From a virus: a stretch of DNA of 34,888 bases. Under the pieces are notes generated by a model, which was not told the origin of the DNA, made no database searches, and saw only the letters and a program-made list of their open reading frames with translations. Both the position numbers and the translations under genes were made by a program. How positions within the stretch are numbered: position 1 is the stretch's first letter; every line of letters starts with the position of its first letter. Positions 1-8,560 of this stretch are shown in pieces. Where the stretch lies: IMG/VR virus record IMGVR_UViG_3300020371_000028, positions 1-34,888 of that record. One strand, 5' to 3'.

Positions 1-206
1 AGGAAGTCGGAGCCTTCATCAACAGCATCCCAAAGGGATACGTTGATTTCATCCATGTCCTCTTCAGAGAAGAGGGCTTTCTCTTCCAGTAGGAAGAGAC
101 TGTGGTTCAAGGTTTCGTGAGAAACCTCCTGAGCCAGCAGGCTGGCTGGGCGGGAGTCACCAAGGGTGACACAAAGGGCAGGGTTCATGTTCATGGTTTC
201 AATCAT
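1..206 (-). CDS. Small phage protein, hairpin-rich gene family member 1 (C-terminus off window)
   Basis: An open frame starts with ATG at 206 on the minus strand and runs off the left edge after 68 codons. Its N-terminus (MIETMNMNP) matches that of the next two genes upstream (MTETMNMNP and a variant). A motif EVSHETL near residues 28-34 recurs as EVSKETL and EVPYETL in the genes at 229-654 and 969-1280, so these are paralogues or share a duplicated module. The protein is acidic and probably helical. I recognise no domain. The coding DNA is a near-continuous run of short hairpins (18-47, 59-75, 80-99, 110-127, 132-147, 156-170). Such small minus-strand genes apart from the late operon are often early host-takeover genes, but that is inference. 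Confidence 0.6.
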   Translation of the reverse strand, partial: MIETMNMNPALCVTLGDSRPASLLAQEVSHETLNHSLFLLEEKALFSEEDMDEINVSLWDAVDEGSDF

Positions 207-580
207 GGTTCAACGTAGTTGGTTAGGGTTATTGGATGTCATCTTCGATGGCCTTCTCAAGGTTCTCCATGAGAACCTCAACCTTCTCAATCTCATCTTC
301 GATGAGCTTGACCGGAGCTTGATATTCCCTGTGGATGAGAGGGCACCTCTCATCAGGATGGAGATCCTCAAACTCCCTGAGTTCAAGGTAAACCTTGGAG
401 AGCAGTCCCTCAAAGTCGGGATCTCCAAGCACTTCACAATACTCATCCAGAGTATTGAAAGCCTCTTCCAAAGTCTCTTTAGAGACTTCTTCATTAAGAG
501 TATAAGCGTCAAGACGCTTAGACTCTGTAGCATTCAGCAGGAGGTTCTCCTGCTCTTCACGGGTAGCTCTCAAGAGAGCT
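18..580. other. Chain of short hairpins inside two coding regions
   Basis: At least 14 perfect or near-perfect inverted repeats with 5-9 bp stems and 2-5 nt loops: 18-47 (nested), 59-75, 80-99, 110-127, 132-147, 156-170, 260-278, 292-306, 334-354, 437-457, 471-488, 503-520, 536-554, 565-580. The stems differ in sequence while the architecture repeats, so this is not a dispersed copy of one palindrome. They lie within codons of the minus-strand genes. I did not notice a comparable density elsewhere in the window, although I could not compute it. Confidence 0.75.
181..231 (-). repeat. Leader/start repeat, copy 1 (mate at 629-677)
   Basis: This stretch spans the stop codon of the 141-aa gene, the short gap and the start of the partial gene. 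It is nearly identical to 629-677, which does the same job between the next two genes. Both read, on the minus strand, TAACCC, a short AAC/ACGTT block, then ACCATGA and the codons for ETMNMNP. No Shine-Dalgarno sequence lies in it. The repeat shows that this gene array grew by duplication, or that the leader itself is under selection. Confidence 0.75.
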
Positions 581-654
581 TCATTGACGAAGTAAAAGCC
601 TTCGCCACCTTCGGTGAGGATGGAATCAGGGTTCATGTTCATGGTTTCAGTCAT
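229..654 (-). CDS. Small acidic phage protein, hairpin-rich gene family member 2
   Basis: 141 codons from ATG at 654 to TAA at 229. The start is supported by the shared N-terminus MTETMNMNP and the shared leader repeat. The product is very rich in Glu and Leu and probably all-helical. It carries EVSKETL near residues 55-61, matching EVSHETL in the neighbour downstream. No known domain is recognised. The coding DNA contains strong hairpins at 260-278, 292-306, 334-354 (9-bp stem, 3-nt loop), 437-457, 471-488, 503-520, 536-554 and 565-580. Function unknown; an early regulatory or host-interaction protein is possible but unsupported. Confidence 0.65.
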   Translation of the reverse strand: MTETMNMNPDSILTEGGEGFYFVNEALLRATREEQENLLLNATESKRLDAYTLNEEVSKETLEEAFNTLDEYCEVLGDPDFEGLLSKVYLELREFEDLHPDERCPLIHREYQAPVKLIEDEIEKVEVLMENLEKAIEDDIQ

Positions 655-677
655 GGTTTTAACGTAGTTAAGGGTTA
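629..677 (-). repeat. Leader/start repeat, copy 2 (mate at 181-231)
   Basis: Near-identical to 181-231. It begins with the TAA stop of the gene at 675-935, continues through an AT-rich leader and ends in the start codons of the 141-aa gene. A shorter version of the coding part (ACCATGAACATGAA on the minus strand) also occurs near 898-920, in the N-terminus of the third gene. Confidence 0.75.
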
Positions 678-935
678 GTCTTCGATGAACTCGCGCCGTC
701 CTTCAAGAGGACCGTGCCAAGTTCCTTGGGGCCTTTGCTGATTCCAAAATTCAGCTTCTCTATGGTTCAGTAGTCGCTGGCAAGCTTCACGCACTACTGG
801 ATCAGGATGGTTCTCCAGCAAATCGTTCAGGTCACGATCAGGAAGGGTTGCATGCATTCGCATGATTTGGGGGAGGTGGTTCATGGTCAGGGATTCAGGA
901 TTCATGTTCATGGTTTCAGTGGTTTCGGTCATCAT
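675..935 (-). CDS. Small phage protein, gene family member 3
   Basis: 86 codons from the ATG at 935; a TTG at 941 in the same frame gives two more residues. The N-terminus MMTETTETMNMNP aligns with the MTETMNMNP start of the next genes, which decides the start. Residues roughly 33-60 (DLLENHPDPVVREACQRLL, then EAEFW) resemble a segment of the fourth gene that also has Asp-Pro followed by a helix and an E-A-x-x-W-like end, so the family is divergent but probably related. No domain is recognised. It is preceded by a 48-bp leader repeat (939-987) that also precedes the fourth gene. Weak hairpins occur at 698-712 and 717-729. Confidence 0.55.
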   Translation of the reverse strand: MMTETTETMNMNPESLTMNHLPQIMRMHATLPDRDLNDLLENHPDPVVREACQRLLNHREAEFWNQQRPQGTWHGPLEGRREFIED

Positions 936-1334: not shown

Positions 1335-1620
1335 CGCATTGCTCCCTAAAGGGAGCCGCCATTCCTTTTAGGAATGGCATGCGCGGGGCGCGTGAAACTT
1401 TCCTTGAAAGTTTTGAACCCAGAAAACCACTTAACACTCACCTTTGGTGAGTGAATCCTTGATCCCTTATCCTGAATTATGATTCAGGAATAAGGGATCA
1501 AGATCGTTAATCCTTGATACCCAAAGGGTTATCAAGGATTAACGGAGTCAGCATTACGTTAATTGTTTGAAGTTATGACTTCAAACAATCAAAGACGCCA
1601 CCCCTAGGGGTGGCGTCTTT
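1311..1620. other. Array of about ten back-to-back hairpins in a divergent non-coding region
   Basis: No credible gene lies between 1290 and 1695. The space is filled with perfect or near-perfect inverted repeats: 1311-1323, 1341-1356 (GCTCCC/GGGAGC), 1358-1378 (GCCATTCC/GGAATGGC), 1378-1394, 1395-1413 (AAACTTTC/GAAAGTTT), 1435-1453 (CACTCACC/GGTGAGTG), 1458-1502 (13+7 bp stem, one bulged A, TATG loop), 1505-1544 (15+3 bp stem, AAA loop), 1562-1589 (12-bp stem, TATG loop) and 1591-1620 (30-bp palindrome). Spacers are mostly 0-25 nt. Two hairpins share the TATG loop and two share AATCCTTGAT in the left arm. This could be a structured leader or small RNA, a replication origin, or a cluster of terminators or processing sites. 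Confidence 0.75.
1591..1620. terminator. 30-bp perfect palindrome, probable bidirectional terminator
   Basis: AAAGACGCCACCCCT is followed directly by its exact reverse complement. The GC-rich core with T-runs at the ends in both directions fits a bidirectional intrinsic terminator, although only three Ts follow on each side. A perfect palindrome without spacer could equally form a cruciform or bind a dimeric protein. It separates the hairpin array from the plus-strand gene start at 1696. Confidence 0.55.
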
Positions 1621-1662: not shown

Positions 1663-1690
1663 TTGACGGTTAGCCCGCTTTAAGTAGCAT
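1663..1690 (+). promoter_or_regulatory. Candidate sigma70-like promoter (TTGACG-N16-TAGCAT)
   Basis: A -35 match of 5/6 and a -10 match of 4/6 are spaced 16 bp apart and preceded by an A-run at 1656-1662 that could act as an UP element. It sits at the head of the plus-strand gene block. The expected transcription start falls at the ATG at 1696, so the transcript would be leaderless or nearly so, or the site is not a promoter. Confidence 0.35.
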
Positions 1691-5039: not shown

Positions 5040-5344
5040 TGCCTCAGAAAAAAAAGCCCACTGTTCCGATTAAACTGGAACATTGGTTTAATGACGTTAA
5101 AGCTATAGAGCAGTTAAGGAATATCTTAGCTGACCCTGCCCTCCAGCAAGCTATAGCTATCCTCAAGGAAGCTGCTGGCCCGACTGTTTCTTCTATTGGG
5201 ACAAACCCACAGGAGAACAGCCATAAACTGAGCTGGTATGCAGGATACAGGGACGCTTTCAACGACTTGGAAAAACTCACCAAACAACCGAATTCAAACC
5301 AGCCACCAACTATTGAAGAATGGAATCACATTCAGAATCCGTAG
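5039..5344 (+). CDS. Small virion-assembly-region protein, unknown function
   Basis: 101 residues. It starts on the last base of the portal stop (TAATG) and ends 25 bp inside the next gene, so translation is probably coupled. The N-terminus is Lys-rich and the middle is helical, with an SWYAGYRDAFNDLEKL segment near 66-81. Similar small proteins often sit between portal and scaffold genes in marine podoviruses, but I do not recognise a function. Confidence 0.65.
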   Translation: MPQKKKPTVPIKLEHWFNDVKAIEQLRNILADPALQQAIAILKEAAGPTVSSIGTNPQENSHKLSWYAGYRDAFNDLEKLTKQPNSNQPPTIEEWNHIQNP

Positions 5345-7174: not shown

Positions 7175-8560
7175 ATGGCTTTCGGACCACAGACCTCTAG
7201 GTACGTCAACCCCGGCGCAGACGGTGCGGTTGACACTATCAACACAATCCTGACCCAAGAAGCAAATCGCATTGGGCAGGACATCCACAAGGCGACTCTC
7301 CACACTTCTCCGTGGATCGACCTTATCAAGCAGTCTAGTTTCCCTGAAGGGATGGGGTATCAACTGAATACCCTCATTTACGACCGCGCTCTTCCGATTA
7401 CTCCAATCACCCATGACCTTGGAGATACCAGCGGAGCCAGCGTAGGAACTGACTGGTTTGCTATGGGCGCAACTGACGCTACAGCAGCCAATGGTTACAG
7501 CGGCGGTCAGACTACGACCACCAACGACCACCCCACAGAAGGGGCCAACGTAAACGTCATCGACTTCACCAAAGTCCTGAAGAACTACAGCCTGAGCCGC
7601 GCTGTGATCGAATCTCCCCGAATCAACGTCGAGGAACTTCGCTTCGCCGCTCACCGGACTGAGCAACTTCGGGCTATCATGGATCTCCTCAAGGAGTCTA
7701 CCCGTGAGTCTTGGGAAGATCGTTATCGTCAGCAGTATGACCAGCAGTGCGACAATGTCGTATATGCTAAGGCTGCAAGCAGCCGTTTCACGACTGGCGC
7801 AGAAGGTAAGGCAACCCACGGCCCTGCTGCGGACCTTATTGATATTGACGACACTGCCCTCACCGCTGGTGGTGACGGCACCGACGACAACGTCATTAAC
7901 GTCGATGCCAACATCTCCAACGCGCTTCTGGATAAGATCTATTACCAGCTCGTGCGTAAAGGTGCAGGCAACAATGCCCACGGTCGTGAGAACGGTCGCC
8001 CCGTATTCACCCTCGTGTGTTCTTCGGAGGCTTCCTACCAGCTCCAGACCGAAGCCGGATTCCGCGACGATGTGCGTTACAACAACGCCCGTGTGTCTGA
8101 CCTGATCGCTCCTCTTGGAGTTGAGAAGTCCTTCAGGGGTTTCTACCACCTGATCGACGACAAGGCTCCCCGTTTTAACCTCGCACTCTCCAGTGAAAAG
8201 CTGGTCAACGTGCCTGTCTACACAGTACAGGCTCCGGGTGGTGGAGACGACGGAACTGGAAAGGTCATCGTCAATACCGCTTACGATAGCGCCGATGTCG
8301 AAGTCGCTTACATCCTCCACGAGGAAGTTATGGAGTCCCTGATTCCTTCTCCTCTTGGTAATGTCAACGGCCTCAAGTTTGACCCTGTTTCCTATAAGGG
8401 AGACTTTAAGTGGACGAACATCCCCGATATCACAAGAAACCCCGATGGTATTATCGGATTCTTCAGGGGCATCATGGCCAGTGCATCGAAGCCGATTAAG
8501 ACGGACTTCGGTTACATCATCTTGTTCAAGCGCACCAGCACTACTCCTGCTGCTGTGTAG
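7175..8560 (+). CDS. Major capsid protein
   Basis: 461 residues, the usual length for a HK97-fold major capsid protein of podoviruses. The evidence is its place right after portal and scaffold genes, its own promoter-like region, balanced composition, and typical features such as an N-terminal helical arm, a long central helix-rich part (about residues 135-200) and a beta-rich C-terminal half. No sequence motif is diagnostic, so the call rests on context and overall look. A T-run and the ATG follow each other with no Shine-Dalgarno. A strong GC-rich hairpin follows the stop (8572-8608). Confidence 0.8.
   Translation: MAFGPQTSRYVNPGADGAVDTINTILTQEANRIGQDIHKATLHTSPWIDLIKQSSFPEGMGYQLNTLIYDRALPITPITHDLGDTSGASVGTDWFAMGATDATAANGYSGGQTTTTNDHPTEGANVNVIDFTKVLKNYSLSRAVIESPRINVEELRFAAHRTEQLRAIMDLLKESTRESWEDRYRQQYDQQCDNVVYAKAASSRFTTGAEGKATHGPAADLIDIDDTALTAGGDGTDDNVINVDANISNALLDKIYYQLVRKGAGNNAHGRENGRPVFTLVCSSEASYQLQTEAGFRDDVRYNNARVSDLIAPLGVEKSFRGFYHLIDDKAPRFNLALSSEKLVNVPVYTVQAPGGGDDGTGKVIVNTAYDSADVEVAYILHEEVMESLIPSPLGNVNGLKFDPVSYKGDFKWTNIPDITRNPDGIIGFFRGIMASASKPIKTDFGYIILFKRTSTTPAAV

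Follow-up and report, generated by a model that had tools for sequence, protein, structure and literature searches.

The early genes at the left end of the genome of an uncultivated marine phage carry a dense string of short hairpins. This excess goes beyond what the encoded proteins need, is regional, recurs across the clade to which the phage belongs, and is absent from the late genes of the same stretch of DNA. That stretch, called the window here, is a 34,888-base IMG/VR virus record. Two small hairpins at 110–127 and 471–488, which the initial annotation had singled out as one stem kept by selection in two paralogues, are part of this string. The best explanation, which is put forward tentatively, is a regional pressure at the nucleotide level for local pairing of the early transcripts, in which the hairpins are individually replaceable.

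Perfect hairpins were counted when they had an arm of 7 or more and a loop of 2–6. There are 18 perfect hairpins in positions 1–1620 and 17 across the remaining 33 kb, with about 0.5 expected from shuffles for the first 2 kb. Positions 1–1000 contain 11 (0.45 in shuffles) and positions 1001–2000 contain 7 (0.05 in shuffles). For coding sequence, the expectation came from shuffling synonymous codons within genes, an operation that preserves both the protein and its codon usage. With arms of 6 or more, the left minus-strand genes have 13 hairpins where such shuffling leaves 2.3, and the middle minus-strand genes have 19 against 5.6, while the late structural genes, with 11 against 11.3, are at expectation. 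Overall, coding hairpins in the hairpin-rich region are 4–7 fold above the synonymous-codon shuffles. Folding energies show the same picture. In positions 1–1290 the sense strand has an excess of local folding of −71.7 kcal per kb over synonymous shuffles (z −6.5) and the antisense strand one of −62.7 kcal per kb (z −4.6), compared with −6.8 kcal per kb for the late genes of the window. When the minus-strand transcript of 1–660 is folded, it forms a chain of separate local hairpins (z −6.6).

Table 1. Hairpins, genes and intergenic elements at the left end of the window
Feature	Position	Strand	Remarks
Early gene 1, cut off by the contig end (5' part present), small protein, family without assignment, EVSHETL	3–206	−	ORF; orthologues complete at 135 aa in L087 and L211
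Hairpin, 7-bp stem, 3-nt loop	59–75	−	
Hairpin, 8-bp stem, 4-nt loop	80–99	−	
Motif hairpin, copy 1	110–127	−	7-bp stem, 4-nt loop UCAC; inside gene 1
Hairpin, 7-bp palindrome, 2-nt centre	132–147	−	
Early gene 2, 141 aa, EVSKETL	229–654	−	ORF; L211 orthologue with EVSVETL
Hairpin, 8-bp stem, 3-nt loop	260–278	−	Same sequence in L211
Hairpin, 9-bp stem, 3-nt loop, −12.5 kcal/mol	334–354	−	
Hairpin, 8-bp stem, 5-nt loop	437–457	−	
Motif hairpin, copy 2	471–488	−	7-bp stem, 4-nt loop UAAA; inside gene 2
Hairpin, 8-bp palindrome, 2-nt centre	503–520	−	
Hairpin, 8-bp stem, 3-nt loop	536–554	−	G-C pair is A-T in L211 through two silent changes
Hairpin, 7-bp palindrome, 2-nt centre	565–580	−	
Early gene 3, about 80 aa, leader ETMNMNP	675–917	−	ORF; leader match; without arm-7 hairpin
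Early gene 4, up to 106 aa, EVPYETL	969–1289	−	BLASTP to gene 1 over 48 aa, E 0.005
Motif hairpin, imperfect third copy	1190–1207	−	One mismatch; inside gene 4
Pair of neighbouring intergenic hairpins with stems of 7 bp and 9 bp	1341–1378	.	Second loop inverted (AAA to TTT, minus-strand sense) in L211/L212
Two intergenic hairpins, 8 bp	1395–1453	.	
Three long inverted repeats between genes (nested 13+8 bp; 18 bp; 15 bp)	1458–1592	.	
15-bp palindrome, bidirectional intrinsic terminator-like	1591–1620	−	Identical in L087/G001 and L212
Sigma-70-like promoter ahead of late operon	1663–1690	+	

The four genes at the left end encode small proteins for which Pfam and PHROGs gave no match, and Rfam gave none in the window. 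They are presumed to be early genes from their position and small size. The proteins of genes 1 and 2 have a 16-residue leader (MTETMNMNP...) in common. Protein-pattern searches of viral contigs returned no homologue of gene 2 and found gene 4 in the contig of L087 only, and a search with the full gene 1 protein added a single relative, from a metagenome-assembled genome of Acidimicrobiaceae. The contig L212 (PBPU01000072.1, 15.6 kb), which is 94–98% identical to the window phage, is binned in an Acidimicrobiaceae MAG; this is possibly a hint to the host, or else a binning error or contamination. At 170–226, 627–678, 896–920, 922–987 and 1270–1334, and at 7293–8527 of L087, the early genes have in common the leader (ETMNMNP plus sequence upstream of it) and an intergenic repeat of 66 bp. 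L087 is nearly identical to the window, but cassettes lying between these repeats have been swapped, with window positions 226–908 replaced.

Re-reading of the sequence confirms that both motif hairpins are present with 7-bp stems and 4-nt loops, as the initial annotation had it. On the minus strand, gene 1 reads GAG GTT TCT CAC GAA ACC TTG (EVSHETL, 108–128) and gene 2 reads GAA GTC TCT AAA GAG ACT TTG (EVSKETL, 469–489), so the two pairs that differ between the stems do so, as claimed, by silent third-base changes. The imperfect stem reported in the fourth gene is also there, with the codons GAG GTT CCT TAT GAA ACC TTG (EVPYETL), in which a change from Ser to Pro breaks one stem pair. The RNA fold energies are −7.1 kcal/mol for copy 1, −7.0 for copy 2 and −3.3 for the third copy. 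The evolutionary conclusion drawn from these stems fares less well. Genes 1 and 2 had been taken as paralogues at the motif, but BLASTP aligns only their first 16 residues. Their comparison does not describe the evolution of one hairpin, because this leader is all that they share and the position of the motif differs, being residue 27 in one protein and residue 55 in the other. The gene 4 copy, which is homologous to that of gene 1, keeps the silent codons and breaks the pair. Given the peptide and the codon usage of the genome, a 7-bp stem is expected by chance in about 1.5% of cases per copy, a modest figure when taken alone, and five of the seven pairs are fixed once suitable Ser and Leu codons are in use. 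The specific argument for selection from two paralogues is not supported, whereas a pairing pressure beyond the needs of the protein is supported across the region as a whole. As for the two stems themselves, copy 1 is retained in L212, and copy 2 has 14 of 14 stem bases identical in the L211 orthologue, where the loop codon has changed from AAA to GTG (K to V), giving the loop UGUG.

To the right of these genes lies a set of intergenic hairpins and inverted repeats. A consensus scan of the minus strand finds that the palindrome at 1591–1620 has a G+C-rich stem followed by a T-run, which fits a putative intrinsic terminator. The TTGAC box of the promoter-like element beyond it also occurs ahead of the plus-strand gene in L090 and L095. 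Further on, the gap before the HNH gene holds an inverted repeat, imperfect and about 139 bp long (2174–2312), for which comparison with L087 gives a 71% match to its own reverse complement.

Relatives gathered by DNA polymerase and portal searches form a large clade of uncultivated phages whose genomes are near 60 kb. In about 55 of them hairpins are densest within the first kilobases to the left of the portal gene and fade over about 8 kb, and in this hairpin-rich region small genes run leftward. Pooled over the clade, perfect 7-bp hairpins occur at 1.0–2.0 per kb in the first 6 kb, where about 0.2–0.3 are expected, and fall to 0.5 per kb by 8–10 kb. The richest genomes are L087, L090, L095, L181, L185 and L191. 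The ratio of observed hairpins to synonymous shuffles is 3.9 in the early genes of the window and L087, 3.2 in six other hairpin-rich ("hot") genomes and 2.2 in the others; it is 1.7 at a distance of 6–10 kb and 1.4 in late genes. Far relatives, with portal identity below 40%, have little excess. The trait is not unique to this clade. Among unrelated cultured phages, coding hairpins are in excess in the first 6 kb of N4 (2.5) and P-SSP7 (3.7), and at 7–30 kb of DSS3phi2 they are at 2.7 times the synonymous shuffles; the ratio is near 1 for T7, lambda as a whole and SIO1, and the early regions of phiKMV and Syn5 show no excess. The window is at the extreme of this range, with N4 and P-SSP7 as weaker versions. 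A search of the open-access literature found no account of hairpin-dense early phage genes. As a separate observation, an intergenic unit (CTCCCTTTTAAAGGGAGCAGCGCAGGCTGCTGG) is present in several copies at 5222–8740 of L090, some of them with an inverted hairpin loop (TTA/TAA).

True homologues give mixed support for selection on the stems. In pairwise alignments across the clade, the early intergenic hairpins covary strongly, with 78 paired and 169 one-sided changes against 39 and 703 in the control (ratios of 0.46 and 0.055). In coding hairpins there are 34 paired and 367 one-sided changes, against 49 and 1087 in the control. The initial annotation would have been refuted by changes that break the stem as often as they keep it, and by that measure the coding hairpins go against it: breaking changes are ten times commoner than paired ones, although the coding ratio of 0.093 is twice the 0.045 of the control. 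Between gene 2 and its closest orthologue (L211/L212, PBPU01000072.1), 3 of 112 sites have changed in stems of 7 bp or more, and all three changes keep the pairing, one by a change to G-U and the others as a silent double change from G-C to A-T. This double change is in the hairpin at 536–554, where CAG has become CAA (Gln) and CTG has become TTG (Leu). Loops have changed at 4 of 19 sites and other sites at 16 of 281; with no breaks in stems of 7 bp or more, the contrast between stems and the rest is not significant alone (p 0.16). When L211 and the window are compared with N and gaps excluded, 3 of 301 sites in stems of 7 bp or more differ against 88 of 1246 others, a contrast that is inflated by the divergent, hairpin-poor gene 3. 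Farther early genes compared between G001 and L212 show no stem conservation (10 of 349 against 172 of 5821), and fourfold sites of the GP88 gene are not conserved in hairpins (8 of 19 vary) relative to those outside (39 of 93). In HEP homologues with 48% protein identity, three of four hairpins lie at an equivalent place, one of them in a shifted register; scans with the HEP protein returned G001 and G002 only. The repeated TSKEV units in HEP of L095 are encoded as ACT TCC AAG GAA GTA and as ACC TCT AAA GAG GTA, with two paired silent differences. It may be no more than that the peptide allows a stem at these HEP sites.

A mutational origin is a serious rival to selection on the transcript. 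In template switching (quasi-palindrome correction), one arm is copied onto the other, and perfect stems are made or repaired with no need for a function. This mechanism has been documented for RNA stems (PMC8794818) and for coding genes (PMC8604942), and it is a possible, though on balance unlikely, source of the string; the same holds for its consequence, namely that the paired silent changes would be single events. It would account for stems that are mostly perfect Watson-Crick and for loops that are symmetric between strands, as well as for several inverted spacers: the loop at 1358–1378 reads AAA in the window but TTT in L212, AATGAT-CTT-ATCATT has the spacer AAG in L020 and L022, and the repeats of L090 have TTA or TAA loops. 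The amino-acid order is itself hairpin-prone in hot genomes (shuffle ratio 1.38), which also agrees with a mutational source. However, clusters of substitutions that match a nearby reverse complement are as frequent as in reversed and complemented controls, both early and late, although few of these alignments cover the hottest regions, and loop inversion does not occur more often in early genes than in late ones. Nor are sense/antisense asymmetry and tolerance of G-U pairs expected from template switching. Sense folding exceeds antisense folding in four of five clade sets (z −2.0, −0.6, +0.1, −1.6 and −2.2, roughly −2.8 combined), and coding regions in the rest of the clade contain 176 stems with G-U where shuffles predict 100, with A-C at 137 for 114 expected; the hottest genomes by themselves have roughly as many A-C as G-U near-misses. 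The hairpin excess is flat across codon phases, with no rise where silent freedom is greater, which fits a mutational source as well as a pressure that acts on silent and replacement sites alike.

The slight sense bias points to RNA and so also speaks against a function at the DNA level, in which hairpins would be extruded from either strand for replication, recombination or cassette exchange. Such a function, which is rather improbable, would agree with the lack of strand preference in loops (GNRA 15 sense and 15 antisense, GNA 26 and 26, both enriched on both strands), with the preference of hot genomes for short loops and 5'Y-R3' closing pairs, and with the swapping of early cassettes between the window and L087; but the hairpins lie within genes and not solely at cassette borders, and the stem sequences are all different, and therefore offer no common binding motif. 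Mobile palindromic elements were ruled out by this same diversity of stems. Hairpin promoters of the N4 type, read by a virion RNA polymerase, are very improbable and were dropped. N4 is likewise rich in early hairpins and phages of the clade encode a giant protein of 3,500–5,000 aa, but stems and loops vary from hairpin to hairpin with no common sequence, and no such polymerase was detected: a PF00940 scan that detected T7 and N4 RNAP2, with N4 vRNAP itself below the cut-off, gave no hit in 12 records of the clade, several of which are incomplete. The giant proteins show no convincing similarity to N4 vRNAP, and one of them, searched against Pfam, PHROG and PDB, had no match. These proteins (L100:2077-14313, L125:7411-19845, L128:5606-16066 and L130:4831-19731) are encoded beyond the window's right end and have conserved N, middle (with a HEYTH zinc-protease-like motif) and C regions; they may be internal virion or polyvalent proteins. 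Finally, coincidence, from a palindromic motif peptide and compositional bias, is improbable. The chance figures for the motif stems given above and the mild excesses in unrelated phages are in its favour, and it is possible for the two motif hairpins alone. For the region as a whole it is disfavoured by a 4–7 fold excess over shuffles that keep protein and codon usage.

Under the preferred reading, local pairing of early transcripts, selection would act mainly on self-pairing of the transcript and would ask for a hairpin at a given place rather than for a fixed set of pairs. Most likely, packed hairpins of 7–9 bp would then protect early mRNA, while the host is being taken over, from 3' exonucleases and from nucleases specific for single strands, and the intergenic hairpins would add terminators and other RNA signals. 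A stronger form, in which interchangeable stems in host-takeover genes guard the mRNA against host or defence nucleases or are read by a dedicated phage factor, is doubtful. If true, it would mean that a second, structural message lies over early phage genes generally, in this clade and more weakly in N4 and P-SSP7. It is worth noting that most early genes of phages are small, evolve fast and have an obscure function, and that their nucleotide-level constraints have been little studied. If the strong, regional and protein-independent excess reflects structure, codon choice in early genes is shaped by it, which bears on gene finding, on tests of silent-site selection and on the survival of phage mRNA against host nucleases. 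If it is mutational, the region would be a natural case of template switching that builds paired "compensatory" changes which mimic selection.

RNA viruses have ordered RNA structure at the genome scale and conserved hairpins in coding regions. The window resembles them in its many local coding stems beyond the needs of codon choice, some with paired silent changes, but it belongs to a DNA phage, and its hairpins are mainly in early genes, mostly replaceable and weakly biased to one strand. Intrinsic terminators are matched by the palindrome at 1591–1620, whereas the coding hairpins mostly have no U-tracts and lie inside open frames. With the promoters of the N4 virion RNA polymerase (PMC4496689), the clade shares short hairpins in the early region and differs in having no common motif and no detected polymerase. 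The perfect short inverted repeats, spacer inversions and paired changes are like those of template-switch mutagenesis (PMC8794818, PMC8604942), but the clade has no excess of templated mutation clusters. In cells and DNA viruses, a weak excess of mRNA structure has been described downstream in genes, which in phages is slight and genome-wide (PMC3072339). At a distance from the start codon the window likewise folds better than its synonymous shuffles do, but here the effect is about 10 times that in its own late genes and is made of discrete, perfect hairpins.
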